Source of the DNA: a virus
Length of the DNA: 32,763 nucleotides
Strand: one strand, 5' to 3'
Virus record (IMG/VR): IMGVR_UViG_3300008114_000080
Location: 1-32,763 of that record
Under the pieces are notes generated by a model. It did not search any database. It had not been told where the DNA came from and saw only the letters and a list, made by a program, of their open reading frames with translations. A program made the position numbers and the translations under genes. Positions 2,075 through 32,763 of this stretch are shown here, one piece after another. The number at the start of each line of letters is the position of its first letter. Position 1 is the first letter of the stretch.

Positions 2075-2503
2075 TTATTTGTGTTCTTCAGTTATAACTT
2101 CTTTACCTTCACCAAAGTCAATTACTTCAAAAACTCTTGTTTGAATCTTCTTAGTCCCTTCGGCATTGGTTAATATGATTGAATTTTTAAATTTCTGCCA
2201 ATTAATGACAAAAGAATTATCCAACACCCCACCATTCTCCTCTTTAACTAATTCGTTAAGAGCATTAATAGTGTAAAGTGAGTTAGATTCCTTTTTTCTA
2301 TGTATTAAAATAGTATTTTCCAACGGAGTATCCGGTTGGAATGCTGTATCTATATTGTACGTGATAAATAATTCATCTAAATTCGCCTTATTTTGGAGAA
2401 TATAAATGTAATTATAAACGATATGGTAAGTTTCCCTTATTAATTGTAATGTATTTTGTAACTCACCTTTCGTTGTAAACGTACATAATAACTGTGTTTT
2501 CAT
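2075..2503 (-). CDS. Uncharacterised phage protein, 142 residues
   Basis: I do not recognise a named family. The sequence opens MKTQLLCTFTTKGELQNTL and continues with a Tyr/Ile-rich stretch (ETYHIVYNYIYILQN). There is a likely beta segment near NTILIHRKK and a charged C-terminus ending TEEHK. It has no signal peptide or clear transmembrane helix. It is the first gene after a late-type motif (2533-2540) and is followed within 7 nt by the endolysin. A virion or late role is therefore plausible, but that is inference from position only. Confidence 0.75.
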   Translation of the reverse strand: MKTQLLCTFTTKGELQNTLQLIRETYHIVYNYIYILQNKANLDELFITYNIDTAFQPDTPLENTILIHRKKESNSLYTINALNELVKEENGGVLDNSFVINWQKFKNSIILTNAEGTKKIQTRVFEVIDFGEGKEVITEEHK

Positions 2504-2565: not shown

Positions 2566-5500
2566 TTACTTATTTTTTGAATCAAAGCATTTTTGCATAT
2601 CATCTGACCATGCAAGGGTGTTTGCTGTTTTTGCTTGAGGTCCTTGTTTTGGTCTAAATACTTTTGGTGAAATTTCTTTTCTTTGATTATTTTTATCAAC
2701 CAGATATATAGCAATTGATTTACCCGTTACAAACCCTTCTTTATTTTTTATAAATTTTTCAGTTTTAAAATCAACAACGAAGTTTTTTTCCAAATCTTTA
2801 GTATCGTCAACTCCTAAACAATTTTTAATCGTCTTTGCAGATACTCGTATTCCTTCCATAGTAAGGTCTGTACTTCTTTTTAGAATTTGATGGATATCCT
2901 TATCATTCTTTGGTAAATCTATTTTATCTAAATGCAATGCAGCTACCGCATCTTTGAATCCTAATGCAGCTGCCGCATTTGTTGGATTACCATTCATTGT
3001 TTTGGCTTTTATTTTGCTCAACTTTTCAAATATACCTCTTTGAGTTTCAAATGCTTTCTTTCTCATAGCTTCTAAAGCACCTTGTGTATCTATTGTCTTT
3101 GGTATCGGCTTTCCGGCAGCCTTAAACGTTTCCCTAGCAGATGTAGCTCCTCTATCTATAACTTTTCTTTCATTTTCAGTAACAACGTTTGGTGATTTTA
3201 TTTGTACATTATTTAATATTTTAAACGGAGATACTGATTTAATTGCTTGTTTATTTTTTTTATCACCTAACCAAGTTTGATTAAACCAATTTATATATTC
3301 AGTTCTACCTTTTTTACCAGCATCTAATGCTTTTCTAACCTGTTGTTTTACACTGTCTTCAATTTCAGGGTTTTTTAATAAACCAGCGGTGTTATCTTCT
3401 CCATATTTATCAAGAGTATCTTGAACAAATGCATCTGCTTGTAATTCTTCTTTAGATTTTTTTCTCTTTACACCACTTATTTCTTCTGCTATCGCAACAC
3501 TCTTTGCATCTGATTTTCCTTGTGCTGATATTACTTTATTAATTGTGTCAACCCAATTTTTATAGTGCTTTTTAGTATCAGGATTAGTTAGAACAAATTC
3601 TTCCATTTTTTTAAATTCCTGTGGTGATAATCCTAAATGATATTTTGAGTGATTACTAGATATGGTACTATATCCTCTTTCAATTAATTTTATTTCGTTT
3701 GCACCATCTTCTATAATTTTTCTTGCTTTACCCGCATCCGCCTGGCTTATCTGTCCGCTCTTAATCATTTCTTCCACTCTTATTCCAGATTGTATCATAT
3801 CATTGTACAATGTGCCGTTTGCCTGTAAATCACCTAATGTTTTTTTATCACTCCAACCATCATATAATAGATTACCATTAATATCTTTTGTCAATACAAC
3901 GGTATCTGCCGCATTTTCTCCGCCACCCGAACTCATTATCCATTTTTTCAAATCTTCTTTTTCTATCTTATATACCTTACGAGTTTCATTATCGTATATG
4001 TAGCAATTTTTACTAGTGTCTACTTCCGATAACATATTATCTCTATCAGTTTTAATTTTTTCAGGTGTATTATCTTTTTTAGATGTTCCCCCATATCCTA
4101 TGACACTTGCAGTTTTTCCAAAACCAACCTGTTTTCTGCACTCATCTGCACCTTCGGTACTTCTTTGATATTTTGATTTACCACTTCTTGCAACAATTGC
4201 ACAGTTTTTATATAATCCCTGTTGCTCTTTTGTAATACCCTCTGGTATTTTAATTTTATTTTTAGATTTGATTACTGGCTCCGATTGTTGCTCACCCAAT
4301 TTTGTACCAAAAACTTTTGTAAAAATAATCATTGCAAGTTCTTGCTCAGTCAAATTTGGATATTTTTGTAAAATAACTGCAACTTCATTTGACATATTTT
4401 CATTAAAGTTAGAACCTGCATTTCCTGGTGCCACCCACCACTCACCTTCGGTATATCCATTTTTTAAAGCAGCATCGGAAGTTGCCGAACCTTGTAACAA
4501 TATACCTTTACCATCTTTCCCATAAAGTTCTTTAAAAATTTTATCTACCTTTTTTAGGTCTACTGCTTGAGTAGTTTCTTCACCGGTATCTTTTGTATCT
4601 TTACTAGTGGCAGCTTTTGCTGCTTTTGTTGCCGCTTTTTGTTTTTTAGGGTCAATAGTTTGTACTTTTACTTTTTTACCTCTAGCAGTTGTTTTTGTTA
4701 CTACCGCTTCAAACAATAAGTAAGCAAGTGTTTCATCTCCGTGTAATAATACTTCTTCCACTATACTCTCAACAATTCTATATTGTGCGGGGCCTCCAGG
4801 GGTATCTGAATAATATCCACCACCTATGCTATAAATTTTTCCACCAGGTGTTTCATCTGCGGCTTTAGGTTCAGGTAGTTTTTCAGTTGGTTTTTCACTC
4901 TTTCCTTTTCTATAAGCATCAACGTGTGAATTACCAACGGGTGCAATTACTGTATATCCAGCATCTTCTGCCTCTTTTATTTTTCTATCTAATTCTCTTT
5001 GACGGAATCCATTATAAGCCTCTTGTGCTTTCATAATTTCATTATCACCCATCTTACCTTCATCATTATAATTTAATTCATAAAGGTCTTTTTGTTGTGC
5101 ATCGGTTAGGTTATCCCAATCAACATCACCATCAAATTGTGAACTTCCACCTTTTTTAGCTTGGTCTATTAACCATGCTTTTCCCTCATCATCTAAATAA
5201 TCTTCAGGTAACATATCGGCGTCTTTCCCATCCTGTCCATACATATTTGACCATACTGCAGCTTTAGCTTTGGATTTACTTCCACCTACTGCATTTGCTA
5301 CTTCATCAAATACTGGTGAGGTATCATCGGATATATCTGCATTTTCATCCCAACTACTTTCTTCTGCATTATCAAAGTGTCCTTTTACGGCATCTCTAAT
5401 CTCTTTTTGTTCTCCACTAAATTGTATATTACCTTCACTATCTTTACTCATTCCACCTTCACCTACAAACATTACTTTTGTATCCTTTGGAAGTGATGTG

Positions 5501-7026
5501 ACTTGATTAATTGTTTCCTTGGTACTTTCATTTCCTTTACCATGTTCAATACCAATAATCATAGACCCATTTGGAGTTGTTTCTACATCCAATTTCTCTC
5601 CGTTTGATGTTGTTCTATTTTTTAAACCATCAACAACTTCATCAGGTTGTTTTGTTACCAATTGGTCAGATGGTGTTTCTTTATTAGCATCCGCTTTTTT
5701 AGCAGCAATACCCATATCTTCTGCAAACTTATTTGCCATTGGGATTGCTTCTTTAATATCCATATCCAATACCGTTGTTTTCATTGGTATTTGTGCATCC
5801 GGATGTTGTGCGTTATAAGCTGCTATCGCTGCCCATCTATGATGTCCATCGATTATATATCCATCTCTACTCACATAAATTGGTGCAGTGATTCCTTCAT
5901 TATTAGGATTTTCTTCTAAAGCTCCAATCATACCCACTACTTTAGCACCAACTAATTCAGATTGTGTTGCTTTTAATTTATCGGCAGGAACTTCGGTTTG
6001 TACTGTATTAATTCCTTTTTCCTTTAACATTTCTTTGAAAATCGGTTCAGTATCTACGTCCCCATTTTCATCAACAGGCATATTGGCTGCTCTACTTCCT
6101 TCAATCGCTTTACCTTTAAATTGTGGCATTTCTTCTCTAGGAATTCCTAAATTATCATCACAATACAAGTTTGTACCAGGTACAGTTATTTGACAAAGAT
6201 TAATGTTTGGTGCTTTTTCACCTTTAGCTTTTGCATCATCAACAATTTGTTTTACTTTATTAATATCAGTATTAAATTGTTCTAATTCTTTTTCACCAAT
6301 CCCAGCTGGTATATCGGATTCACCACCAAATGTATCAGGATCCGCTTGTGGAATTTCGTCTTGTACATCTACCGCAGGTATCGGATTGAAATCAGTTTCT
6401 ACTCCTGAAGTTACATCTTTTTCAGATTCAGCACCTTTATCTTCTGTATCTTTTGCTATTTGTGCAAGAGTTTCTTTTTCTTTATCCAAACGAGCAGCCA
6501 TCGCTGGGTCTGCTTTTGGGTCAAACATTGCTGCTGCCTGTTTTATTGGGTCTTCCTGTGGTTGTTCTTCACCAGCTCCAGTTGCATCTGTTGGTGCTTC
6601 TGGTTTTTGTGGTTGATTCTCACCACCTAAATCTTTATTAATCGTATCTCTTTCATCCGAACCGTCTGGAGGTAGTAATCTTTCCGCTGCTTTTCTACCA
6701 GGGTGTTCAGCCGGTAATCTCAAAAGGTTACCAACCAATCCTTCGGAATCTTCACCTTTAGCGTTTTTATATTTTATACTTTTATTTAAAATAGGATTTT
6801 TAAACTGCTTATCCGCTTCAACCACATGCTTCTCTGGCGTTTTTCCTTTTTCGGTTAAAAGATTTTCTACTAAATCATTTTTGATATGAGATAGACCCAT
6901 TTCAGAAAGTACAATACCCAACTCTTTTAAATGGGTTGGGTTCTTTGGGTTTGGCATTCCATCATCTACTCGGTATGCCCATTCGGAAATAATTGTATTA
7001 ATTAATTGTGATAAATTCATATTCAT
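2566..7026 (-). CDS. Giant multidomain phage protein with ParB-like nuclease fold and possible Tiki/EreA-like domain
   Basis: This is a 1,486-residue, largely hydrophilic protein. Residues 1-60 (SQLINTIISEWAYRVDDGMP, NPKNPTHLKELGIVLSEMGL) resemble an N-terminal module seen on T4-like phage proteins. Residues 130-260 are low-complexity, rich in Asp, Glu, Pro and Gln. Residues about 343-435 form a ParB/sulfiredoxin-like domain: VPADKLKATQSELVG, then DGYIIDGHHRWAA at 388-400, the family's nucleotide-binding signature. Residues about 488-707 contain IIGIEHGKGNES, VMFVGEGG and a terminal TVIAPVGNSHVDAY. This order of GxxH-like, acidic and GxxH motifs resembles the Tiki/TraB/EreA superfamily, which is an inference. 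Residues 780-830 are Lys-rich and the C-terminal 600 residues are unrecognised. The ATG overlaps the stop of the nuclease gene (TAATG), so translation is probably coupled. It could be an injected or head-internal protein. Confidence 0.88.
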   Translation of the reverse strand: MNMNLSQLINTIISEWAYRVDDGMPNPKNPTHLKELGIVLSEMGLSHIKNDLVENLLTEKGKTPEKHVVEADKQFKNPILNKSIKYKNAKGEDSEGLVGNLLRLPAEHPGRKAAERLLPPDGSDERDTINKDLGGENQPQKPEAPTDATGAGEEQPQEDPIKQAAAMFDPKADPAMAARLDKEKETLAQIAKDTEDKGAESEKDVTSGVETDFNPIPAVDVQDEIPQADPDTFGGESDIPAGIGEKELEQFNTDINKVKQIVDDAKAKGEKAPNINLCQITVPGTNLYCDDNLGIPREEMPQFKGKAIEGSRAANMPVDENGDVDTEPIFKEMLKEKGINTVQTEVPADKLKATQSELVGAKVVGMIGALEENPNNEGITAPIYVSRDGYIIDGHHRWAAIAAYNAQHPDAQIPMKTTVLDMDIKEAIPMANKFAEDMGIAAKKADANKETPSDQLVTKQPDEVVDGLKNRTTSNGEKLDVETTPNGSMIIGIEHGKGNESTKETINQVTSLPKDTKVMFVGEGGMSKDSEGNIQFSGEQKEIRDAVKGHFDNAEESSWDENADISDDTSPVFDEVANAVGGSKSKAKAAVWSNMYGQDGKDADMLPEDYLDDEGKAWLIDQAKKGGSSQFDGDVDWDNLTDAQQKDLYELNYNDEGKMGDNEIMKAQEAYNGFRQRELDRKIKEAEDAGYTVIAPVGNSHVDAYRKGKSEKPTEKLPEPKAADETPGGKIYSIGGGYYSDTPGGPAQYRIVESIVEEVLLHGDETLAYLLFEAVVTKTTARGKKVKVQTIDPKKQKAATKAAKAATSKDTKDTGEETTQAVDLKKVDKIFKELYGKDGKGILLQGSATSDAALKNGYTEGEWWVAPGNAGSNFNENMSNEVAVILQKYPNLTEQELAMIIFTKVFGTKLGEQQSEPVIKSKNKIKIPEGITKEQQGLYKNCAIVARSGKSKYQRSTEGADECRKQVGFGKTASVIGYGGTSKKDNTPEKIKTDRDNMLSEVDTSKNCYIYDNETRKVYKIEKEDLKKWIMSSGGGENAADTVVLTKDINGNLLYDGWSDKKTLGDLQANGTLYNDMIQSGIRVEEMIKSGQISQADAGKARKIIEDGANEIKLIERGYSTISSNHSKYHLGLSPQEFKKMEEFVLTNPDTKKHYKNWVDTINKVISAQGKSDAKSVAIAEEISGVKRKKSKEELQADAFVQDTLDKYGEDNTAGLLKNPEIEDSVKQQVRKALDAGKKGRTEYINWFNQTWLGDKKNKQAIKSVSPFKILNNVQIKSPNVVTENERKVIDRGATSARETFKAAGKPIPKTIDTQGALEAMRKKAFETQRGIFEKLSKIKAKTMNGNPTNAAAALGFKDAVAALHLDKIDLPKNDKDIHQILKRSTDLTMEGIRVSAKTIKNCLGVDDTKDLEKNFVVDFKTEKFIKNKEGFVTGKSIAIYLVDKNNQRKEISPKVFRPKQGPQAKTANTLAWSDDMQKCFDSKNK

Positions 7027-7634
7027 TAAAATTTGTGGTCTCCTTCTTCACATATCATTTCTAATTCATCCCATTTGTATTTTGGTTTTTCATTTAGAAA
7101 TACAAAACATTTCCATTTCTTTTGTTTTTCAAAGTAAACGTGTTTTTGTAAGTGTGATGGAATTGCTGCACCAGTTGGTACTCTTTTAACCGGAGTATCA
7201 AAGAAAGTTTTTATTAAAACGGTGATTGGTTCTACATCATCCCATTTACGGATTTGTTCTTCCAACATTCTCCACTCACCTCTATTAAGATATTGATTTT
7301 GCATTATTGAATTTAGATATGAGAATGTTTGTTTTAAATTCGCTTCGTTATCAGAGAATGTTGCTGCAGGAGCTCCATGTCCTTTATCATAAACATTTCC
7401 TTTATAATCATCACCATCTGATGTTTTTATATTAGACTCTTTATAGAAATCCATATGACCTCTATTAACGTTTGTAGGTCTATTAGTTGAACGATACTTA
7501 ATAATTAGTGGTTGTTCTAACGATTGTGAATAAAGTATATCAAACACTTCATTCTTCACTCTCACATCAGGCAATTGTCCAAACGATGTTAAGGAAACGA
7601 TTAAAAACGATAAAAGGAACATCAATTTTCTCAT
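7026..7634 (-). CDS. Exported DNA/RNA non-specific endonuclease (NUC family)
   Basis: I place the start at the ATG at 7634, giving 202 residues. A signal peptide then begins at residue 1: MRKLMFLLSFLIVSLTSFG with likely cleavage before Q20, a typical Bacteroidetes site. The open frame upstream to 7700 would bury it. The catalytic core reads VYDKGHGAPAATF at 81-93, the DRGH motif of Serratia-type beta-beta-alpha-metal nucleases with H86 as general base. It is followed 31 residues later by LNRGEW with N117, the expected Mg-binding Asn, and then LEE at 124-126. The family cleaves DNA and RNA with little specificity. An exported form would act in the periplasm or outside the cell. A late-type motif lies 24 nt upstream and the stop overlaps the start of the 1,486-residue gene. 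Confidence 0.85.
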   Translation of the reverse strand: MRKLMFLLSFLIVSLTSFGQLPDVRVKNEVFDILYSQSLEQPLIIKYRSTNRPTNVNRGHMDFYKESNIKTSDGDDYKGNVYDKGHGAPAATFSDNEANLKQTFSYLNSIMQNQYLNRGEWRMLEEQIRKWDDVEPITVLIKTFFDTPVKRVPTGAAIPSHLQKHVYFEKQKKWKCFVFLNEKPKYKWDELEMICEEGDHKF

Positions 7635-7658
7635 ATTATAGCATATTTTTGTATATAG

Positions 7659-7666
7659 TATAAATA
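7659..7666 (-). promoter_or_regulatory. Candidate late promoter (TATTTATA)
   Basis: TATTTATA on the minus strand, 24 nt before the ATG at 7634 and just past the polymerase stop at 7673. Its presence here supports the 7634 start, because the longer frame from 7700 would begin upstream of the promoter. Confidence 0.55.
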
Positions 7667-7672
7667 TGTTAT

Positions 7673-8959
7673 TTAGAGGTTTCCGTAAGTTTTCCCCCAA
7701 CTCGCTTTGATTGGAAACCCACCTTCCTCTATTATATCCTTTAACCCCTTAATCAAACTCTTATCCACATCGGCAGGTACATCAAATAGAAACGAGTCAT
7801 AAGTGTACAACTCCAAAGTTATTCCACTACCCTTTATATAATCCAATATCTTCACCATCTTATCCACATTCATTTCAGTTTCATATGCTTGTAGAAGATA
7901 GTTAAATACCTTTTGTGCATTTGGTTGTTCCACCCACATTGTAGGGATTTGACGGTTTGGTGTTTGGATATAACCCTTCACCACACTCTCTTTCCAAAAC
8001 TTATCAATAAAATCAGCAACCTTATCAAAGTATGGTATTTGTCGAAACTCATCATCAATCCCACCATAAAGTAATCGGAATGTTACACCCTTACCTTCGG
8101 CGATATCACATCCATATTGTTCAGCTAACCATTGGTGAACATTTCCTTGTGGTAGTGGGAAATCAATCAACTTACCAATAAGACGTGGGTGATACGAATC
8201 ATAGTCCATTTGTAAGAATATCCCATCCGCTATTAAGGTATCTCTACTCCCATCCGATTTGTTGAGGGCTGCATAGTTCACACCGGCATGTCTATTGGAT
8301 GGTCTGCCTGTTATTGTAAATGGATTATATTCGGTAAACACTAAACCATCTGATGTAATGTGTTTGGAAGACTGTGGCCATCTATCAATAAATTTTTCCT
8401 TATCGACCCGAATTCCGAATTGTTCGATTTCTGAAAGGATTGGTAAGAAGATATCATTATACCAATTATAAGTTTTAGTCTTTTGATTATGGTGTTTTAG
8501 AAATTCATTATCAACGGCTTCACACAATTTAAGAATGGGAATGGATTGAATGACATCTTCTTTGTAACCTTTATGTAATAAGGGAGCTACTAAATGTTGT
8601 ATTGGTTGAGAATAATCTATCGTTTCTCCGGTTTTAAGAAAGTGAGCAGTATCAATGTCATTCAACCCTTCCCTTAAATTAGAGAACGATTGTAGTAGCT
8701 TCTTTTTTTGGAAAACCCACTTATCTCCTTTTGTATTCAAGACACCCTCTATTTGTGATTTAGAGAGGGATATAGTATCAGTATGTTGATGTGGTAGAAT
8801 ATACCTATCGGTAAGAGTTCGTATCAGGATAAAGGATATATGGGTGTTTCGTGGGTGTTTGTCATTATCCACCCACATAGGATACCAAAGGGATGCTTCG
8901 GTTTCCAATATATTCGTCAATTCATCCAACTCACCAGTATTTTCTATCACTCTTATCAT
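7673..8959 (-). CDS. Compact, divergent family-A (Pol I-like) DNA polymerase
   Basis: This 428-residue protein carries the palm motifs of family-A DNA polymerases in order. LEx-GI-vD-like IEQFGIRVDKEKF is at 178-190 and TGRPSNRH at 217-224. Motif A is LQMDYDSYHPRLIGKL with catalytic D252. The motif B region, GKGVTFRLLYGG at 289-300, keeps the Lys and the YG end. Motif C is YTYDSFLFDVP with D388, where Y387 replaces the usual His of HDE and S389 replaces Glu. Residues 1-150 correspond in position to the exonuclease domain. They contain DIDTAHFL at 101-108 but no clear DxE motif, so proofreading may be lost. Standard Pol I Klenow fragments are about 600 residues. Its start overlaps the end of the upstream gene by 29 nt. 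Whether it is the main replicase, a repair enzyme or inactive is unknown. Confidence 0.82.
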   Translation of the reverse strand: MIRVIENTGELDELTNILETEASLWYPMWVDNDKHPRNTHISFILIRTLTDRYILPHQHTDTISLSKSQIEGVLNTKGDKWVFQKKKLLQSFSNLREGLNDIDTAHFLKTGETIDYSQPIQHLVAPLLHKGYKEDVIQSIPILKLCEAVDNEFLKHHNQKTKTYNWYNDIFLPILSEIEQFGIRVDKEKFIDRWPQSSKHITSDGLVFTEYNPFTITGRPSNRHAGVNYAALNKSDGSRDTLIADGIFLQMDYDSYHPRLIGKLIDFPLPQGNVHQWLAEQYGCDIAEGKGVTFRLLYGGIDDEFRQIPYFDKVADFIDKFWKESVVKGYIQTPNRQIPTMWVEQPNAQKVFNYLLQAYETEMNVDKMVKILDYIKGSGITLELYTYDSFLFDVPADVDKSLIKGLKDIIEEGGFPIKASWGKTYGNL

Positions 8960-9268: not shown

Positions 9269-9655
9269 TGGTGGAGATGAGGGGAATCGAACCCCTGTCT
9301 TACGAAGTAATCATAATACCAGCATGTCACACGTTTAGGATAAAGTTTAATCTTATCTACTTTCCAAAATAATTGGGGCCGTATGGTTAGTACAGCTTTC
9401 CACCAACCTATCAGTATTTAAGAGCCGATAGGTAGAGCTCCTTTTTGTTCACTTCTTTTTTAAACCCCATGAGTGATACGGGAGGTGATTAGGCTGCTAC
9501 AGCTAAATCAGCACCCATGAATGACATTACATCATCAAAGGTCCAAGTAGATAATTCTACGTCAGTTATTGTTTTGTACAGATTTAAAGACATCTAGCAC
9601 TTCTGTCTACGTGTGGTACTACCATTCTCATCGCAATCAAATCCATGGCATCCCC
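9269..9655 (-). ncRNA. ssrA: Transfer-messenger RNA (tmRNA, trans-translation RNA)
   Basis: This 387-nt RNA has both halves of the tRNA-like domain. The 5' end GGGGATG (9655-9649) pairs over 7 bp (one G-U) with CATCTCC near the 3' end, which finishes with an encoded ACCA. The 5' region contains GGATTTGATTGCG, close to the conserved GGATTCGACGG. The 3' part has a T arm, AGGGGTTCGATTCCCCT. A helix-2 pairing of TTGCGA with TCGTAA is possible, and an AGACA/TGTCT stem can form where pseudoknot 1 is expected. The predicted resume codon is at RNA position 93 (E. coli: 90), directly after TAACT. tmRNA with SmpB rescues stalled ribosomes and tags their products; no smpB is seen here, so host SmpB is probably used. 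It has its own promoter and terminator. Confidence 0.93.
9489..9563 (-). other. tmRNA tag reading frame, 24 codons plus TAA
   Basis: The frame starts at GAC (9563-9561) right after TAACT, the upstream context used before resume codons in other tmRNAs (TAGTC in E. coli, TAACT in some cyanobacteria). It encodes DVELSTWTFDDV, then MSFMGADLAVAA, and a TAA stop. The C-terminal LAVAA matches the ALAA-type degron recognised by ClpXP-like proteases with one Leu-to-Val change. Typical tags are about 10 residues, and Bacteroidetes hosts generally use forms ending YALAA, so this tag is long, acidic and hydrophobic. Confidence 0.8.
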
Positions 9656-24265: not shown

Positions 24266-27200
24266 TTATCCTTTATTATTAAGTATTAGTTTGTTTACAA
24301 TTTCTTTCAATTCTTCAATTTCTTTTTGTTGAGTTTTGATAATTTCGTTTTGTTCTTTAATTGCTTCAATAAACAAACCTGCAAAGTTACCATATGCAAC
24401 CCCATATTCATCAACATCTTCCGCATAAGTTACTACTTCAGGTAATACCTCATCAACTTCCTGTGCAATTACACCAATGTTTCTTTTTTTGGTTTCATCA
24501 TCAATTCTGTTATACCAAACACCTCTTAATCTTAATAATTTATCCAAAGGATTGTCAACAGTTTCAATGTTTTCTTTTTTTCTTCTATCAGAATATGCAA
24601 CAACATCACCCGTTGCGTAAATTCCTTTTTCAACATAAATACCATAAGATGAAGATGTTGATGATGTATTAAAACCAGTACAATTGTTTCCTAATGAATG
24701 ATAAAATGTCCATCTACCATAGTCTTGAATGTACATACCACCATTACCACTACCATCAAACATTAAATGTGGTTGATTTCCGGTACCAATACTGATACCA
24801 TACCATCCATTCCTACTTCCATCAGCTCTCCATGAACCATAAGATGATGCGTAGTTTGGATACCAGTGTGCACCATTATAATCTGAATAATATCCAGCTG
24901 TTGCCGTATATTGCCACTTATATTTAAATGAATAATTTGATGAACCTGCTAAAGTGAAACACAAATCACTCATATCATAATCGGAATAAACTCTAGTTCC
25001 TTCATAAGAACCAGCATTTGCTCCTAATTTAAGACCTGTGTGATATGCGATTCTTAAATCCGGATAAGGATAACTCCATCCACCACCTTCTTGGAAGATA
25101 TTATAAGCGTTTGTACCTTGTCCAGAGTTGCCTCCAGTTCCAATGAAATCTATTCTAGCTACTCTTACATAGTTGTTAAACTCACCACTACTAAATTGTG
25201 AATAAGATTGAGGGTCACAATAATATCCTGTATTATTGGAATCATACATAATATATGCGTACAGATAATATCCAGGGTTAGAATCACTCATTACGAATTC
25301 TCTCCAACCGGATACACCACCGCCCCACTTACCTCTAGCCCAATATCTATTTGCGGTTGCATCTGCTGCACCTACCATCATCCAACCATATCCCGCTCCA
25401 CCATCTGAAGTTGAATAGTGTTGACCAGATACGATACCTTGAGCGTGAACATAACCACCGCCTTGAGGGTGAGCAGTTCCACCACCCCATATATCCCATC
25501 CATTAAATCCACCAGACCAAGCATTATCCCAGTTACCATATCCAGTACCCCATCCTTGTGTACCTGTCCAATAGTTACTATCACCAGTAATATCTCTACG
25601 ATTGGTGTTAGACCTACCTAACATAAATGCCGCTCTACGAGTATAATCGGTAATTGCGTACATATTAGTAGTACCATTAGGGTCAGAATAATATCCAGTA
25701 TTATCTCTATCGTATGTTATATATGGTCTAGCATCGTTCATATATGTAATACGATACAACTCCATATGAGCGTTACCATATTCAATACGAATTTGCCAGT
25801 TACCAGATGAGTTCAACATACCGAAACCACTACCATCCCAATATCCAGCATATCCTCTACTATCAGATTCGTAGTTATTATAGAATTGAATACCACCATA
25901 TCCATATCCACCACCCGCTGATTTCCAATATCCATTATTAGTGTACCAGTGCATTCCTCTATTTTGATTATAGAGTCCAGTACCATTGCTATTATTTCTA
26001 AACCAACCATTGTTATAAACTTCTGCAAAAGTTGGTCCCGCATCAGTTCTTACGTTTTGGTTTAAGTGAGATGACATCCATCCTAAATAAGCCATCCATA
26101 TATCACCACTATCATTAAAATAGTTTCTATCATTACCATCACCCCTTCTCATTATGAAGTATCCACCGGATAGTCTTTGCCAATAAGCGTGAGATGAGTG
26201 CCATTGTAATTTATTGTATTCACCTTGCCATCCACCCGAATCACTATACAACATATTACCCGCACTAATGTACAAGTTATTTGTATGAACAAAGTTAAGT
26301 CTTGAAGAACCATTCGGGTCTAATCTATATCCGGTATCATTTGTATCATACCAAATAGTTGCATACATATCACCACCACTACCAAAGTAAGTGTTACCCC
26401 ACCATAAGTTATGCATTATTACATGATAACCATTACCATATAATTCATTTACGTTAAAGTAGAAGTTTGAACGGTCGGTATAAATGTGAGCATGTCCAGT
26501 ATTCGCAGGTCCAAACTCAATATATCCAGACGGAGTTTGATGTCTCCAACCCCAAGAACCACTTCTCCAATAATAAGAGCCATCACCATAATCGATTTCG
26601 GAAAGCCTAGAACGTCCAGCTGGATTCGTAAAGTATCCAGTATTATCAGTATCATAGAATATCGGTGCTCTCATTGATTCATCAGTCTCAATGTATCTTT
26701 GTACATAGAAACGAGTAAACCAGTTAGAGTGTTTAATATTACCGCCAATTGGAGTTTCTCTTAAATAAAGTGTTGTACCTTGTGGTTTCCAGAATTCCGG
26801 AGAACCAGAACCCCATTGGTGTAAACGGAACATTGCCGGTTCAGTAGAGAAGTTACCAGAAGTTGATATTTCTAATGTTCTGAATGAACCATGCGGTAAT
26901 CCCCAGCCATATCCATAAGGGTCATGTCCCCACCAACCATTACCATCATTATAGTTTCTATTAGTGTCCGCACGAAGCTTATTTGTACCAATTACATTAT
27001 AAATACTTGTACTAGCTTGATTACTATAATAAGATGTATCGTTTGAATCATAAAATATAGGTGCTCTTAATGAGTTACCTGCTTCCAAATAGTTGTTTAC
27101 ATATACCCAGTTACTTGCATAGAACTCCATATTAGTATAACGAGTACCAGAAGTATTTGTGTTGTAAACGTACATATGTCCAGATGTACTAAATCTAAAA

Positions 27201-30200
27201 TACGCTTGACCAAACGAAGTATTAGGTCTACTAAAGTAATAAGGTCCAGAACCATCATGATATGTGTTATCAACGTTATATCCAAATCCAGCCCAATCCC
27301 AAGTATTACCTGGTTCAGAACACCACATTTGTAATTGAACAACACCGGTACCAGCACCATTATTAGATGCTAATAATCGGTTTCTTATTGTAGAATCACC
27401 ATGACCACCACTCATTCGTAATCCACCATAAATTTCGGTGAATGAAGCTGGGTTAATATAGTATCCAGTATTATCCGAATCGTAGAATATTGGAGCTCTT
27501 GCACTATTTGCGAATTCACTATATCCTCTATCTACTCTAAAGTAAGAATCTCTAATCCATCTCCAAATCCAACCATAAGATGTATCATGCATACCCATAG
27601 TGTTACCACCATTATTGTAGTCATGCATCAATGTCATTTGAGAACCTAAAGCATATCCGTTCCAACCATTTCTACCATTAGCATTTGTAGTTGCTACAGT
27701 TCCATATGGATTACCAACGTTTTCAGGAGATGCAATACCTCTAGAATATGGAGTCCAATACATACCACCTGAACTTCTTTGATAAATCCAATCACTCACA
27801 TACACCGTCACCATTGAAGATGTACCATTAGGGTCTACATAATATCCGGTATCATTAATATCATACCAATAAGGTGCGTAGATATATCCATTACCATGAA
27901 CTCTATATACCCAACCACCACCATTATTAACAGCATATCCGTAAGTTGCACCATTTGAAACTTCAACGTACATACCATAATCATGTGCACTCTTATCAAT
28001 TCTTAATCCCCAGTCATTGTTACTTCTATCGGATAAAGTTAATACAGCATCAGTACCGCCTAAACTAAATGGATTTGATGCTCTATAAAGTATTACTGAC
28101 CCATTATCAATACCACCCGCTATTAAACCATTGTTGATTTGTAGTCTATTAAGTTGAGAAGTTGAATTTGCATTAATGTAATAACCTGTATCTGAAATAT
28201 CAGAGAATATCGGTGCTCTTACATCACTGTCCGAATAGATAATTCCGGTATATTTTATGTTACCACCTTGCCATCTTTCATACGATGCCTTATCGGAAAT
28301 CGTTGAAGTTGGTGAGAATGTATATGTACTACCATGTGTTTCAGAATATGATGTACCACTGCCATTCGCAAAATGTACCGATGTACTACCAACAATATTA
28401 AATAAATAATAAACGGTTGCACCTCTTAACCAAATCACCAAACGAGATGATTCCGAAATTTGTTGCCAGTTTGCAATTCCATTAAATGTTCTTCCGTAAT
28501 ATTCTAAATTTTCATATGTTGCACCAAATCCCCATCCACTCGCTTTAACAGTGAATCTTGCATTCATTGTACTGAATCCAATTCCGGAGTATCCTGGGTC
28601 ATCATATCCACCTCTTTCAATTACGAATTCACCATATTGTTGAACAGTTGCACCCGCGCCAATATTAAGAATTACTGGATAGAATGTACTAGCATTACCA
28701 CCAACAGTTATAGCGGTTCTAGCTACGTTATCCAATCTTTGTGCGTATTGAACACCACCTTGAATTATATTATCTACTTGAAGTGTTAATAATCTTGAAG
28801 TACCATTCGGGTCTACTCTATAAGTTGTGTTATCATTATCATAGTAAATAGATGCATAGAATCCTCTACTTGCCGAATGTGTATTATCATACATCGCAAC
28901 TTTAAACCAACCGCCACTATTTGGCCAGAATCTTCTGAACCATAATGAATCGGTTGAACCGCCTGCTAATTGCCATCCATACGCACTATTATATGCATTT
29001 GTATAGTGAAGTGCTTGCATTCCTGTCCAATGTGATGCATCACCAGGACTATTTGCAGGAGATGACCAAGTATCAAAGAAACCACTACCCCAAGTCATTA
29101 CTGAATTAAAGTCAGTAGTTCCCCATCCCATAGAACCTACCCAATAGTTAGAATCTGATGTGTGTGCCCATCTTGGAATATTATATTTCCAAGTTCCTTT
29201 TGTACCTTCTACAGTTCTAGCAGTAAATCCATTTATACTGGTATCTCTATCAGATGCCGGATTTAGGAAATATGTACTATCGTTCCTATCTAAAAATCTA
29301 TTTGCGTAAATATCACCATATAATTCCATTATAGATGAACCATTTTCTCTACCGATATAAGCAAACTGCCCATTACCGGCACTATTATCCATAAATCTTA
29401 CATAAGAGTTGGTATTATTATTATTACTATCAAGTCTTAAAATAATATCATTAAATGAGTTTAAAGATACACTATCACTAAAGTTTCCATTAAGGTCAGT
29501 TGATGCTAAACCATGATTACTATACGAATCATAAGCAGCATCCCAGTCCAATGAAATATATGCTAATCTACTAATATATGCACTATATGTACCATACGTT
29601 CCCCAAATGGAGTATTCACTACCAACTCTAAATGAACCCTGTGCTCTTATATATGCATCTACATACACATTTTTAGAACCTCTAGAACGAATCCAAGTAC
29701 TATCCTGCATAAACCATCCACCACCCCATCCAAATGCAAGTTCTTCATCTTTAAGGAATGATGAAGTACCTCTACCGAATACAATCGCATCGTTGTTACC
29801 TATTAATTGTATTGAACCATTTATAAATAATTTATTAGCGGTTGGATTACTACCTACAGCTGCACTATTATCCGAAGATGTATATGAAAAATCAGTTGTA
29901 TTAATTCCAAGTCTATCTTTTAACCATGCTCTACCATCACCAGTAACTTCAAATTCAGTGTCCCAACCATTTGTATGCAAACGGAATGAATCAGTTTCAT
30001 CAAAATGAATTGAGAATCCATCTCTACCAAAAACACCTCTTGAAGTTCCATGATAACCAATACCCATATGGTTATTAGCACCACCTCTAATGTTTATTGC
30101 GTTCCAGTTTTCACTACCACCATCATTTACTAAAATATTTTCAGTACCATTGCCTCTATGCGGCATTGTTATATAAAGTAAGTTGGAAGTGCCGTTTGGA

Positions 30201-32763
30201 TTTAAATAATATCCCGTATTATCTTGGTCATAAAATAATGGTGAACGAGTATCCACATAAGAATACAATCTACCATCACTATCTAATCTCATACCTTCAG
30301 TACCATTGATTGAAGTGAAATCGGATGTATTATTTACATAGAATCTTAATCTACCGCCGGTTGCAGTTCTACCTGCTATGATATAGTTATCACCATTATT
30401 ACCCAATTGAAGATGATACCAGTTAAATGAACCATGATAGTTGTTAGAACCCGCAGTATAACGTGCTCTAAAATATGATGATGCATTTGGCGTATAAATG
30501 TCACCAGTTGAAATATTTCCTCTATTAGTTACAGTTGCTAAAGTTTCAGATGCAGCAGTACCACTAATATCGGTCTGCATTGTTGCTCTACCAACAGTTC
30601 TTATTAAAGATAAACCGGAAGTTGATGCTTCGGTAATTGACCAGTTTTCTAAATATGAATGTCCTTGGTCATAAATACCTCTTACATTAAATCTACCATA
30701 GTAAATGTTACTTGAAAGATGAATACAAACTTTACCACTACCATTTCTACCAATAGAAACGGTACCAGGATCCCAACCACCTTTGTTTATATAAGATACA
30801 CTTGTCCATCCTGAAGGGTCTGGTGAATATGCGTACCAAACAATTTGTAAATGAATAGGTGCACCATTTCCATATGCATATCCTTCAATAATAACAATAG
30901 GCATATTAAATACGCCATAATCAATATTTGTGGTAATTAGATACCCGGTTGAAGGAGTTGCACCACCGGCATAATAACCGGAAGTTAATGAATGATATCC
31001 AGTTGCTATTTGAGTACCTCTAATAACATTTTGTCTTGATGTTGAAGCAGGGTCTACATAATATCCTGTATCATTTCTATCGTATAAAGAATCCGCATCA
31101 ATTCTACCCATAGTATGAGTAGCAAATGAAGTACTACTACCAGCGTTCCAAATATATCCAGTTGGAGTACTACCTAATGCCGCACGATAGTTAATGTACA
31201 TATTTCCGGTTGTACCACCTAATGTTATTTCATTACCTGCTGATGTAATACTGAAATATCCTGTATTAGTATCTATATAATTTGATGCACCATCTATTTC
31301 AACTTTTCCAAAACGTACCGTATCGGTTGTTCTTACGTTTTGGTTCATTGCATACAATTCATTTGCTCCCTGGCCGGTATCAACGGTTGCAAATGTCACC
31401 GCATCCGTAGTTCTTACGTTTTGGTTCATTGCATATAATTCGTTTGCACCTTGACCAGTATCGACCGTTGCGAATGTAACCGCATCCGTAGTTCTTACGT
31501 TTTGGTTCATTGCATATAATTCGTTTGCTCCTTGTCCGGTATCAACTGTTGCAAATGTCACTGCGTCCGTTGTACGAACATTTTGATTCATTAAGTAAAC
31601 TTCCGTTGCACCTTGTCCAGTATCTACAGTTCCGCTAAGAACTACGTTACCACCTACATACAATCCATCTTCAGCGTACCATCTATCATTTGCTTCTTCC
31701 CAATAGAATGTCTTTGTTGCTGCATTACCTCTCTTAACTTCTATACCAGCATTTTCAGTTGGTGTAGTTGATGCTCCAATATCTGCATTTAATGTAATGA
31801 TATTATCACCTACATTTAAAGTTGTTGTATTAATATATGTTGTTGTACCACTTACAGTAAGGTCACCACTAATTGTAGCGTTACCAGTTACCGCTAACGT
31901 AGTACCATCGAATCTTAAATTTGCTTCAACTGTACCATTTGGTGCAGTTCCATTTAATGTGATTACACCATTATCAGTATTACCCGTTAATGCCAATAAT
32001 CCAGATGTTCCTCCAGAACCTGCGGTACCAGTTGTTCCAGATGTGCCCCCACTACCAGATGTGCCACTCGTTCCACCACTACCAGAAGAACCAGATGTGC
32101 CACTCGTTCCACCACTACCAGATGAACCAGACGAACCACCACTTCCCGATGTTCCTCTAGTACCAGATGTGCCTGCACTTCCAGATGAACCTGATGTACC
32201 AGTTGTTCCAGATGTGCCCCCACTTCCGGATGAACCACTACTTCCTGAACTTCCAGATGAACCCGCTTGTCCACTTGAACCGGAACTTCCAGATGAACCA
32301 CTACTACCTGAAGTTCCAGATGAACCTGATGAACCAGAAGAACCAGAGATTCCAGATGAACCACTGCTTCCAGATGTACCAGCTGTACCGGCTGTACCTG
32401 CACTTGAAGATGTGCCAGATGAACCACCACTTCCCGATGTACCAGATGAGCCACTACTTCCAGATGTGCCACTCGTACCTGCAGTACCAGCCGTTCCACC
32501 GGTACCTGCACTTGCAGATGTACCAGATGAACCACCACTACCGGATGAACCCGAACTTCCAGATGAGCCACTACTTCCCGATGTACCACTACTACCAGAA
32601 GCACCACCGCCACCAGTTAAACCAGATGAACCACCACTTCCTGATGTGCCACTACTACCACTACTTCCGGATGTGCCAGATGAACCAGAACTTCCTGATG
32701 TACCTGCCGTACCACCTACACCGGTCAGACCAGATGTACCACCTGTGCCGGCAGTACCAGTTG
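24266..32763 (-). CDS. Giant tail fibre with collagen-like region and S74 autoprocessing chaperone (5' end outside the window)
   Basis: The frame is open from the window edge to TAA at 24266: at least 2,831 codons with no start yet. From the N-terminal side it contains about 255 residues of collagen-like Gly-X-Y (GTSGSSG type; 32761-31997). Next comes a segment with ATISGDLTVSGTTTYINT, then LNVGDNIITLNADIG, usual in phage fibre necks. Four 27-residue repeats follow (31627-31304), then about 1,900 residues rich in Gly, Asn, Tyr and Trp with a dozen DNTGYYvdPnGTS repeats. The last 109 residues (YSDRRKKENIETVDN, GVIAQEVDEVLPEVV, AIKEQNEIIKTQQKEIEELK) are a peptidase S74 intramolecular chaperone. 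This trimerises the fibre and cuts itself off, with the Ser of YSDRR as expected nucleophile. Start codons near 31996 are internal. Likely role: host receptor binding. Confidence 0.93.
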   Translation of the reverse strand, partial: TGTAGTGGTSGLTGVGGTAGTSGSSGSSGTSGSSGSSGTSGSGGSSGLTGGGGASGSSGTSGSSGSSGSSGSSGSGGSSGTSASAGTGGTAGTAGTSGTSGSSGSSGTSGSGGSSGTSSSAGTAGTAGTSGSSGSSGISGSSGSSGSSGTSGSSGSSGSSGSSGQAGSSGSSGSSGSSGSGGTSGTTGTSGSSGSAGTSGTRGTSGSGGSSGSSGSGGTSGTSGSSGSGGTSGTSGSGGTSGTTGTAGSGGTSGLLALTGNTDNGVITLNGTAPNGTVEANLRFDGTTLAVTGNATISGDLTVSGTTTYINTTTLNVGDNIITLNADIGASTTPTENAGIEVKRGNAATKTFYWEEANDRWYAEDGLYVGGNVVLSGTVDTGQGATEVYLMNQNVRTTDAVTFATVDTGQGANELYAMNQNVRTTDAVTFATVDTGQGANELYAMNQNVRTTDAVTFATVDTGQGANELYAMNQNVRTTDTVRFGKVEIDGASNYIDTNTGYFSITSAGNEITLGGTTGNMYINYRAALGSTPTGYIWNAGSSTSFATHTMGRIDADSLYDRNDTGYYVDPASTSRQNVIRGTQIATGYHSLTSGYYAGGATPSTGYLITTNIDYGVFNMPIVIIEGYAYGNGAPIHLQIVWYAYSPDPSGWTSVSYINKGGWDPGTVSIGRNGSGKVCIHLSSNIYYGRFNVRGIYDQGHSYLENWSITEASTSGLSLIRTVGRATMQTDISGTAASETLATVTNRGNISTGDIYTPNASSYFRARYTAGSNNYHGSFNWYHLQLGNNGDNYIIAGRTATGGRLRFYVNNTSDFTSINGTEGMRLDSDGRLYSYVDTRSPLFYDQDNTGYYLNPNGTSNLLYITMPHRGNGTENILVNDGGSENWNAINIRGGANNHMGIGYHGTSRGVFGRDGFSIHFDETDSFRLHTNGWDTEFEVTGDGRAWLKDRLGINTTDFSYTSSDNSAAVGSNPTANKLFINGSIQLIGNNDAIVFGRGTSSFLKDEELAFGWGGGWFMQDSTWIRSRGSKNVYVDAYIRAQGSFRVGSEYSIWGTYGTYSAYISRLAYISLDWDAAYDSYSNHGLASTDLNGNFSDSVSLNSFNDIILRLDSNNNNTNSYVRFMDNSAGNGQFAYIGRENGSSIMELYGDIYANRFLDRNDSTYFLNPASDRDTSINGFTARTVEGTKGTWKYNIPRWAHTSDSNYWVGSMGWGTTDFNSVMTWGSGFFDTWSSPANSPGDASHWTGMQALHYTNAYNSAYGWQLAGGSTDSLWFRRFWPNSGGWFKVAMYDNTHSASRGFYASIYYDNDNTTYRVDPNGTSRLLTLQVDNIIQGGVQYAQRLDNVARTAITVGGNASTFYPVILNIGAGATVQQYGEFVIERGGYDDPGYSGIGFSTMNARFTVKASGWGFGATYENLEYYGRTFNGIANWQQISESSRLVIWLRGATVYYLFNIVGSTSVHFANGSGTSYSETHGSTYTFSPTSTISDKASYERWQGGNIKYTGIIYSDSDVRAPIFSDISDTGYYINANSTSQLNRLQINNGLIAGGIDNGSVILYRASNPFSLGGTDAVLTLSDRSNNDWGLRIDKSAHDYGMYVEVSNGATYGYAVNNGGGWVYRVHGNGYIYAPYWYDINDTGYYVDPNGTSSMVTVYVSDWIYQRSSGGMYWTPYSRGIASPENVGNPYGTVATTNANGRNGWNGYALGSQMTLMHDYNNGGNTMGMHDTSYGWIWRWIRDSYFRVDRGYSEFANSARAPIFYDSDNTGYYINPASFTEIYGGLRMSGGHGDSTIRNRLLASNNGAGTGVVQLQMWCSEPGNTWDWAGFGYNVDNTYHDGSGPYYFSRPNTSFGQAYFRFSTSGHMYVYNTNTSGTRYTNMEFYASNWVYVNNYLEAGNSLRAPIFYDSNDTSYYSNQASTSIYNVIGTNKLRADTNRNYNDGNGWWGHDPYGYGWGLPHGSFRTLEISTSGNFSTEPAMFRLHQWGSGSPEFWKPQGTTLYLRETPIGGNIKHSNWFTRFYVQRYIETDESMRAPIFYDTDNTGYFTNPAGRSRLSEIDYGDGSYYWRSGSWGWRHQTPSGYIEFGPANTGHAHIYTDRSNFYFNVNELYGNGYHVIMHNLWWGNTYFGSGGDMYATIWYDTNDTGYRLDPNGSSRLNFVHTNNLYISAGNMLYSDSGGWQGEYNKLQWHSSHAYWQRLSGGYFIMRRGDGNDRNYFNDSGDIWMAYLGWMSSHLNQNVRTDAGPTFAEVYNNGWFRNNSNGTGLYNQNRGMHWYTNNGYWKSAGGGYGYGGIQFYNNYESDSRGYAGYWDGSGFGMLNSSGNWQIRIEYGNAHMELYRITYMNDARPYITYDRDNTGYYSDPNGTTNMYAITDYTRRAAFMLGRSNTNRRDITGDSNYWTGTQGWGTGYGNWDNAWSGGFNGWDIWGGGTAHPQGGGYVHAQGIVSGQHYSTSDGGAGYGWMMVGAADATANRYWARGKWGGGVSGWREFVMSDSNPGYYLYAYIMYDSNNTGYYCDPQSYSQFSSGEFNNYVRVARIDFIGTGGNSGQGTNAYNIFQEGGGWSYPYPDLRIAYHTGLKLGANAGSYEGTRVYSDYDMSDLCFTLAGSSNYSFKYKWQYTATAGYYSDYNGAHWYPNYASSYGSWRADGSRNGWYGISIGTGNQPHLMFDGSGNGGMYIQDYGRWTFYHSLGNNCTGFNTSSTSSSYGIYVEKGIYATGDVVAYSDRRKKENIETVDNPLDKLLRLRGVWYNRIDDETKKRNIGVIAQEVDEVLPEVVTYAEDVDEYGVAYGNFAGLFIEAIKEQNEIIKTQQKEIEELKEIVNKLILNNKG
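25210..31090 (-). repeat. About twelve dispersed protein repeats, consensus YDxxNTGYYvdPnGTS
   Basis: Within the fibre a motif of about 18 residues recurs roughly every 60-250 residues. Examples are DRNDTGYYVDPASTS, DQDNTGYYLNPNGTS, DINDTGYYVDPNGTS, DSDNTGYYINPAS, DTNDTGYRLDPNGSS and DSNNTGYYCDPQS. Many are preceded by RAPIFYD. Each copy probably marks the boundary of one building block of the shaft or of a receptor-binding module. Copies differ at the DNA level, so the array is old or under diversification rather than recently duplicated. Confidence 0.85.
31304..31627 (-). repeat. Four tandem 81-bp in-frame repeats in the tail fibre
   Basis: Four consecutive 81-bp units (31627-31547, 31546-31466, 31465-31385, 31384-31304) encode VDTGQGANELYAMNQNVRTT plus DAVTFAT, with small changes in the first and last copies. 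The inner two code for identical peptides. The unit is a structural repeat of the fibre neck and a natural site for copy-number change by recombination or slippage. Confidence 0.92.
31997..32763 (-). repeat. Collagen-like Gly-X-Y coding region
   Basis: On the minus strand every third codon is Gly (GGT, GGA, GGC or GGG) through about 85 triplets. X and Y are mostly Thr, Ser or Ala (GTS, GSS, GSG, GTA), with rare GQA, GSI and GLT forms. At least one interruption (Ser for Gly) occurs near 32410. The frame is continuous with the fibre downstream and continues past the window edge. Phage collagen-like segments form trimeric stalks. Confidence 0.93.

Follow-up and report, generated by a model that had tools for sequence, protein, structure and literature searches.

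A mosaic T4-like phage protein with a Tiki/TraB-superfamily domain and an exchangeable C-terminal module, read as a candidate packaged effector polyprotein

What might a phage do with a single protein that joins several unrelated predicted enzymatic domains in one very long chain? The question is raised by P0001, a 1,486-residue protein encoded in IMG/VR virus record IMGVR_UViG_3300008114_000080, a 32.8-kb record with T4-like tail genes that we analysed over its whole length of 32,763 nucleotides (the window). The source virus is a contractile-tailed, T4-like phage of bacteria; its tail sheath is 48% identical to that of Microcystis phage Mel-JY01 and 40% identical to that of Flavobacterium phage immuto. 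P0001 is one uninterrupted open reading frame (ORF) on the minus strand, from an ATG at 7026 to a stop at 2566, and gave no match when searched whole against Pfam. We suggest, with moderate confidence, that it is a head-packaged, prohead-protease-processed effector polyprotein, carried as late virion cargo.

An IMG/VR protein scan gave 46 loci and two profile scans gave about 150 further ones. At 41 non-redundant syntenic loci the order is polymerase half, nuclease, big ORF and P0004, usually followed by an endolysin, and the upstream genes are also kept wherever contigs extend far enough. Within this frame the C-terminal part of the big ORF varies between six unrelated or barely related types (c1–c6), while P0004 holds 89–99% identity (100% in the window's near-identical contig). 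Since this neighbouring gene is unchanged whatever the cargo, the locus has no cargo-specific immunity gene directly downstream. This exchangeability is the most unusual aspect of P0001 and was missed by the original prediction, made from the window's sequence, which had set the C-terminal part aside as about 600 unrecognised residues. It is actually a conserved, widespread phage module of 654 residues with 46 homologues and 26 invariant columns; E876, D1041, D1048, S1059-D-K1061, D1066 and Q1068 are invariant in all 46.

Across 58 non-redundant multi-domain relatives the C-termini fall into seven clusters (c0–c6). In profile comparison c2, the type found in P0001, matched c3 at E 3e-13 and c4 at E 1e-6, and c4 in turn matched c5 at E 3e-8, so that c2–c5 form one linked family, to all of which a pattern GxG..E, D, SxKK is common when read by eye. 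An HNH-like motif in c6 and a ligase-like KTDG motif in c0 were likewise read by eye, on a motif basis only. The hhalign matches c0–c6 and c4–c6 were disregarded, being all-gap or poorly trimmed regions, and HpaII restriction endonucleases, considered as relatives of the C-terminal module, found no support in profile comparison. The predicted structure of the module is confident (predicted local distance difference test, pLDDT, 91), with strands predicted around D1041 and K1061. A structural search of BFVD gave uncharacterised phage proteins as its relatives; one of these, from Synechococcus phage ACG-2014c, is a weak match (E 0.04). SxK in place of ExK occurs in Cfr10I-type enzymes. The HNH-like replacement together with the E/D/SxK residue set suggests a nuclease, a reading to which we lean slightly, with a predicted SxK-type PD-(D/E)XK-like active site.

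The original prediction had also pointed to a Tiki-like domain with a GxxH...E...GxxH pattern, and here it holds well. The motifs (IIGIEHGKGNES at 490–501, GEGG at 522–525 and VGNSHVDAY at 697–705) are undegraded: E523, R675, G698 and H701 are present in 49 of 49 phage homologues, and G492 and H495 in 48, the remaining row beginning downstream of both. In a TraB profile that we built from cellular proteins, the six leading invariants (G16, H19, E45, R215, G238 and H241) come in the same order, and the spacing from R to G is 23 in both. The spacing of 28 from H to E in the phage domain equals that of Bcr135 (85/113) and RRSP (3902/3930), two Tiki enzymes for which it has been published (PMC6254334). 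Structure prediction, which had been proposed as a check on this region, gave a model (pLDDT 90.2) with the parallel β-sheet core and helices of the Tiki/TraB superfamily. Foldseek against the PDB returned no significant match with this model; on VIA re-alignment of the Foldseek candidates the top three were 8b6h_DQ, 7w5z_E and 8bqs_DQ (Z 9.6, 8.3 and 8.3, the next being 6.1), aligned over 175–178 residues at a root-mean-square deviation of 5.6–6.1. The matched chain is one protein, named 'TraB family protein' by the depositors; a subunit of the TraB family is described in the structure paper (PMC10060162).

The profile similarity that the original prediction had expected is present in register at the cognate motif (ChaN, E 0.0038; TraB, E 0.017), and it is weak, at values that shuffled sequences also reach. 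Pfam PF01963 matched 4 of the 49 members (best E 0.054), PF04187 matched at E 0.025, and T6PP_C matched six members (E 0.00018). An erythromycin esterase profile gave no sequence support for the domain, a null that is uninformative because TraB against Ere fails as well. Sequence searches of the PDB returned chance matches only with the Tiki profile and designed helical bundles only with a general TraB profile; a GTAHVS-type TraB profile matched the TraB subunit weakly (E 0.17) and was used to identify the chain. One member of the module gave no tblastn match in 50,697 named-phage records, a scan of one collection of 85,000 bacterial and archaeal genomes found no homologue, and a literature search, mostly without subscription papers and preprints, found no phage Tiki/TraB virion protein. 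Taking the signature residues, the spacings, the structural matches and the weak in-register profile matches jointly, we are highly confident that residues 480–707 belong to the Tiki/TraB superfamily, with a predicted hydrolase activity.

The ParB-like domain is likewise confirmed, with IIDGHHRWAA at 391–400 (placed at 388–400 before) and DGHHRW invariant in 12 homologues. Its nearest named relatives, from Klebsiella and Pseudomonas phages, are polyvalent PLxRFG proteins (tblastn, E 3e-8). The region has a ParB/Srx sequence with the invariant Arg motif; ParB-like PHROGs match with weak E-values, and the assignment stands at the ParB/Srx level rather than that of the DdrB subgroup. In polyvalent proteins this class of ParB domain has been viewed as a nucleoside triphosphate (NTP)-regulated DNase (PMC5512222).

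How would such a chain reach a capsid? The first 130 residues, passed over by the original prediction, look like a packaging and processing module. Over the first 110 residues of the large ORFs the density of [ILV]xEA motifs is 6.3 per 1000 residues; the figure is 1.6 for the large ORFs as a whole, 1.10 for shuffled copies and 1.05 for other ORFs. Site 1 is kept as [ILV]xEA in 21 of 28 distinct N-termini, as VVE/A, ITE/A, LTE/A, INE/A and similar, and the module junctions bear ITE/A, LTE/A, INE/A, VVE/A and LFE/A. These (I/L/V)xE/A sites resemble those of the T4 prohead protease and match the cleavages of T4 Alt at ITE and LTE (PMC5694885). Of 14 related records, 8 encode an S77 prohead protease (PF03420), and five of the six longest are among these 8. 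The T4-type pairing of an (I/L)xE site near the N-terminus with a prohead protease is thus found, the protease being in related records and not in the window. Prohead-protease-type sites, the protease gene in relatives, ParB kin in polyvalent proteins and the late-gene context are indirect evidence, and together make packaging and injection of P0001 plausible.

At least 40 relatives of P0001, besides two contigs with identical copies, are mosaic. Residues 1–213 and the ParB region recur jointly, and each module is found in other combinations too. Not all relatives have the Tiki region, which is also found as stand-alone genes of 226–289 residues or behind a zincin-like segment (365 residues); the C-terminal module also exists as a stand-alone gene of about 640–840 residues. 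Junctions draw on few short linkers (GGxYYSDxPxGPAxY; GKxVYFxSxExKxAAxxAGTH), and some internal junctions retain a peptide, MKIESLIKEIISEIKLEA, that resembles a gene start, as if formerly separate genes had fused. The 365-residue proteins (L103:4251-5348 and L081:3569-4666) fuse a zincin-like segment with HELCHH to the Tiki domain. Two other Tiki-containing ORFs, L050:3730-9729 and L093:4672-6705, open with a domain resembling cytidylyltransferases (PF01467, E 1.4e-7 and 7.8e-5); L050 belongs to the group with the ligase-like KTDG C-terminus, from phages lacking the window's synteny. In L013 (about residues 560–640), L034, L026 and L029 a glycine-rich segment, predicted as probably membrane-spanning, lies between ParB/Tiki and the C-terminal module.

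The modules, the conserved active-site residues, the exchange and the protease gene in related records are computed here; from these we infer the enzyme activities and their targets. The N-terminal module would bring the polyprotein into the prohead scaffold, where the phage's S77-type protease would cut the (I/L/V)xE junction sites. The capsid would then hold separate enzymes, namely a ParB-like nuclease/NTPase, a Tiki/TraB-type hydrolase and a C-terminal nuclease-like effector, which would enter the cell along with the phage DNA and act early. The ParB and C-terminal units may target nucleic acid, be it the host genome, DNA of a rival or nucleic acid used in defence, and the Tiki unit may target a peptide, protein or ester bond of the host. 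Which C-terminal effector serves best would depend on the host, and for that reason phages would swap this unit as a cassette.

Several observations weigh against this proposal. The exact [ILV]xEA is missing from site 1 in 7 of the 28 N-termini, some junctions have E/K instead of E/A, and the protease gene is absent from the window and from several related contigs, all of them fragmentary. The C-terminal model found no match in the PDB, including by Foldseek, so its reading as a nuclease rests on motif logic. Among block-shuffled controls, 4 of 250 attained the Tiki profile E-value for ChaN and 17 of 250 that for TraB, never both, and each value is modest when taken singly. Two members of the C-terminal module gave no tblastn match in the same 50,697 named-phage records; no named phage carries the Tiki or the C-terminal module, so there is no experimental precedent. 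Packaging, cleavage and injection are, for every member, predictions from sequence.

Part of this evidence could fit a polyvalent protein that is packaged and either injected intact or cut by a zincin-type peptidase, a route put forward for P1 DdrB-like proteins; the xEA sites would then be incidental helix ends. Iyer et al. (PMC5512222) proposed zincin autoprocessing for polyvalent proteins, and the longer relatives L009, L033 and L103 have HExxH zincin-like segments (DUF6782, E 0.0025, in L009). However, P0001 and most relatives lack an HExxH segment, the N-terminal site density is about six-fold above shuffled copies and 8 of the 14 related records carry the S77 gene, which makes this alternative unlikely. 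Slightly less likely again is that P0001 stays in the infected cell as an unpackaged late protein, a scaffold or a component of phage DNA metabolism (ParB nuclease plus nuclease-like C-terminus) with Tiki as a protein hydrolase. The family-A DNA polymerase half nearby (phrog_17, E 1.9e-9) and the ligase-like KTDG motif of the c0 type would suit such a role; yet the gene also adjoins an endolysin with tail genes not far away, related ParB domains are in proteins regarded as injected, and strong C-terminal exchange at constant flanks suits a conflict role over core replication. The long acidic linkers and very large size might instead mark a protein with a structural role, as scaffold or linker, whose enzyme domains have decayed; we find this improbable given active-site residues invariant across 46 to 49 diverse homologues and a Tiki domain that exists as separate genes of 226–289 residues. 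We thus retain the packaged and processed effector polyprotein as our reading of P0001. Its extension to the T4-like phages of this group, in which one fixed locus would encode a packaged, protease-cut polyprotein including a Tiki/TraB hydrolase, with a DNA-acting C-terminal unit exchanged without immunity genes, is tentative and falls a little short of an even chance.

The features of P0001 and its flanking genes are collected in Table 1. The upstream nuclease was correctly recognised as a coupled partner by the original prediction: it matches PF01223 and adjoins the big ORF directly in most syntenic relatives. The ATG of P0001, preceded by an AAGGAG-type ribosome site, shares one base with the nuclease stop (TAATG), an overlap by which the two are probably translationally coupled. 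The start of the nuclease resembles a signal peptide (MRKLMFLLSFLIVSLTSFG) and it is therefore more likely exported than a component of the packaged protein. The adjacent family-A DNA polymerase (428 residues, 7673-8959, minus strand; phrog_17 positions 921-1235) has the polymerase half only; this half is kept in many relatives and the exonuclease part must be elsewhere or missing. A phage-encoded transfer-messenger RNA (tmRNA; 9269-9655, minus strand; Rfam 82 bits, and ARAGORN) has an unusually long tag, DVELSTWTFDDVMSFMGADLAVAA. It lies near the matching place in 22 of 26 sampled relatives, most of whose tags are similar, with 23–26 residues ending AxAA. A tail-fibre-like ORF of more than 2,800 residues (24266-32761, minus strand), open at the window end, combines a region of collagen-like GSSGTSG repeats with a chaperone-like C-terminus. 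P0006 (450-1172, minus strand) gave no tblastn match in the 50,697 phage records. It starts with MANIRLKELVEA, followed by a linker, LVARSKETGKLVYFKSPENKAAALKAGSH, known from big-ORF junctions, and is on these grounds probably another processed head protein.

Table 1. Coordinates of P0001, its modules and its flanking genes in the window
Feature	Residues	Position	Strand	Basis or marks
P0001, entire multi-domain ORF		2566..7026	-	ORF calling; 100% identical copies in two other contigs
N-terminal module, predicted capsid-targeting/scaffold segment	1-130	6637..7026	-	(I/L/V)xE sites LTE59, VVE70/A71
Acidic linker	131-270	6217..6636	-	25% D+E
ParB/sulfiredoxin-like domain	274-449	5680..6207	-	DGHHRW 393-398; phrog_2859 E 1.5e-19; tblastn; motif invariance
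Tiki/TraB-superfamily hydrolase-like domain	480-707	4906..5589	-	G492xxH495, E523, R675, G698xxH701
Junction	724-832	4531..4857	-	GGGYYSDTPGGPAQY linker and predicted protease site LFE773/A774; common to many relatives
Exchangeable C-terminal module, type c2	833-1486	2569..4530	-	Nuclease-like prediction: E876, D1041, S1059-x-K1061, D1066, Q1068
DNA/RNA non-specific endonuclease, partner gene		7026..7700	-	PF01223 E 2.9e-18; kept upstream of big ORF
P0004, constant downstream neighbour	142 in all	2075..2503	-	89-99% identity beside six different C-terminal types

The arrangement proposed here would join polyvalent proteins and T4 internal head proteins in one testable form. The locus offers a fixed genomic slot for reading off new injected phage effectors, with at least seven C-terminal types as well as Tiki, ParB, zincin-like and cytidylyltransferase-like units. 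The Tiki domain suggests a phage-protein hydrolase outside the published polyvalent-protein catalogue, and the whole points to an injected tool-kit of a form not previously described.

With several unrelated predicted enzymatic domains (ParB, Tiki and C-terminal) in one chain, P0001 resembles the phage polyvalent proteins (Iyer et al. 2017, PMC5512222). Like those of the DdrB-like ParB type it is a very large multi-domain chain in late-gene surroundings, and like the PLxRFG protein of Klebsiella phage ZX1 and those of F116-like phages it combines a ParB/Srx domain having the conserved Arg with unrelated enzyme domains. It differs in its Tiki/TraB domain (the 2017 paper mentions neither Tiki nor EreA), in a C-terminal module exchanged at a fixed locus, in prohead-protease-type sites at its junctions and in belonging to a T4-like phage. 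With the T4 internal head proteins (IPI-III and Alt, with capsid-targeting sequence and gp21 processing) it shares the (I/L)xE site type, the S77 protease in relatives and a quickly changing cargo, anti-host in T4, behind a conserved leader (PMC3012670, PMC5694885); those are small single-domain proteins, whereas here there is one multi-enzyme chain of 1,100–2,500 residues. The Tiki-like region has the six signature residues, the 28-residue His-Glu spacing and the TraB family fold match in common with TraB/PrgY/GumN, ChaN and EreA, but a long helical insert separates its E and R motifs, and it sits inside a phage polyprotein. MARTX-type multi-effector toxins, one of whose effectors belongs to the Tiki family (PMC6254334), are similar in outline, with several effector domains in one chain and proteolytic release; they show no sequence relation to P0001, for which phage-capsid delivery into bacteria is proposed. 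Polymorphic toxins of the Rhs/CDI type also combine a constant N-terminus with exchangeable nuclease-like C-terminal domains, and the P0001 locus differs from them in exchanging its cargo without a dedicated immunity gene directly downstream.

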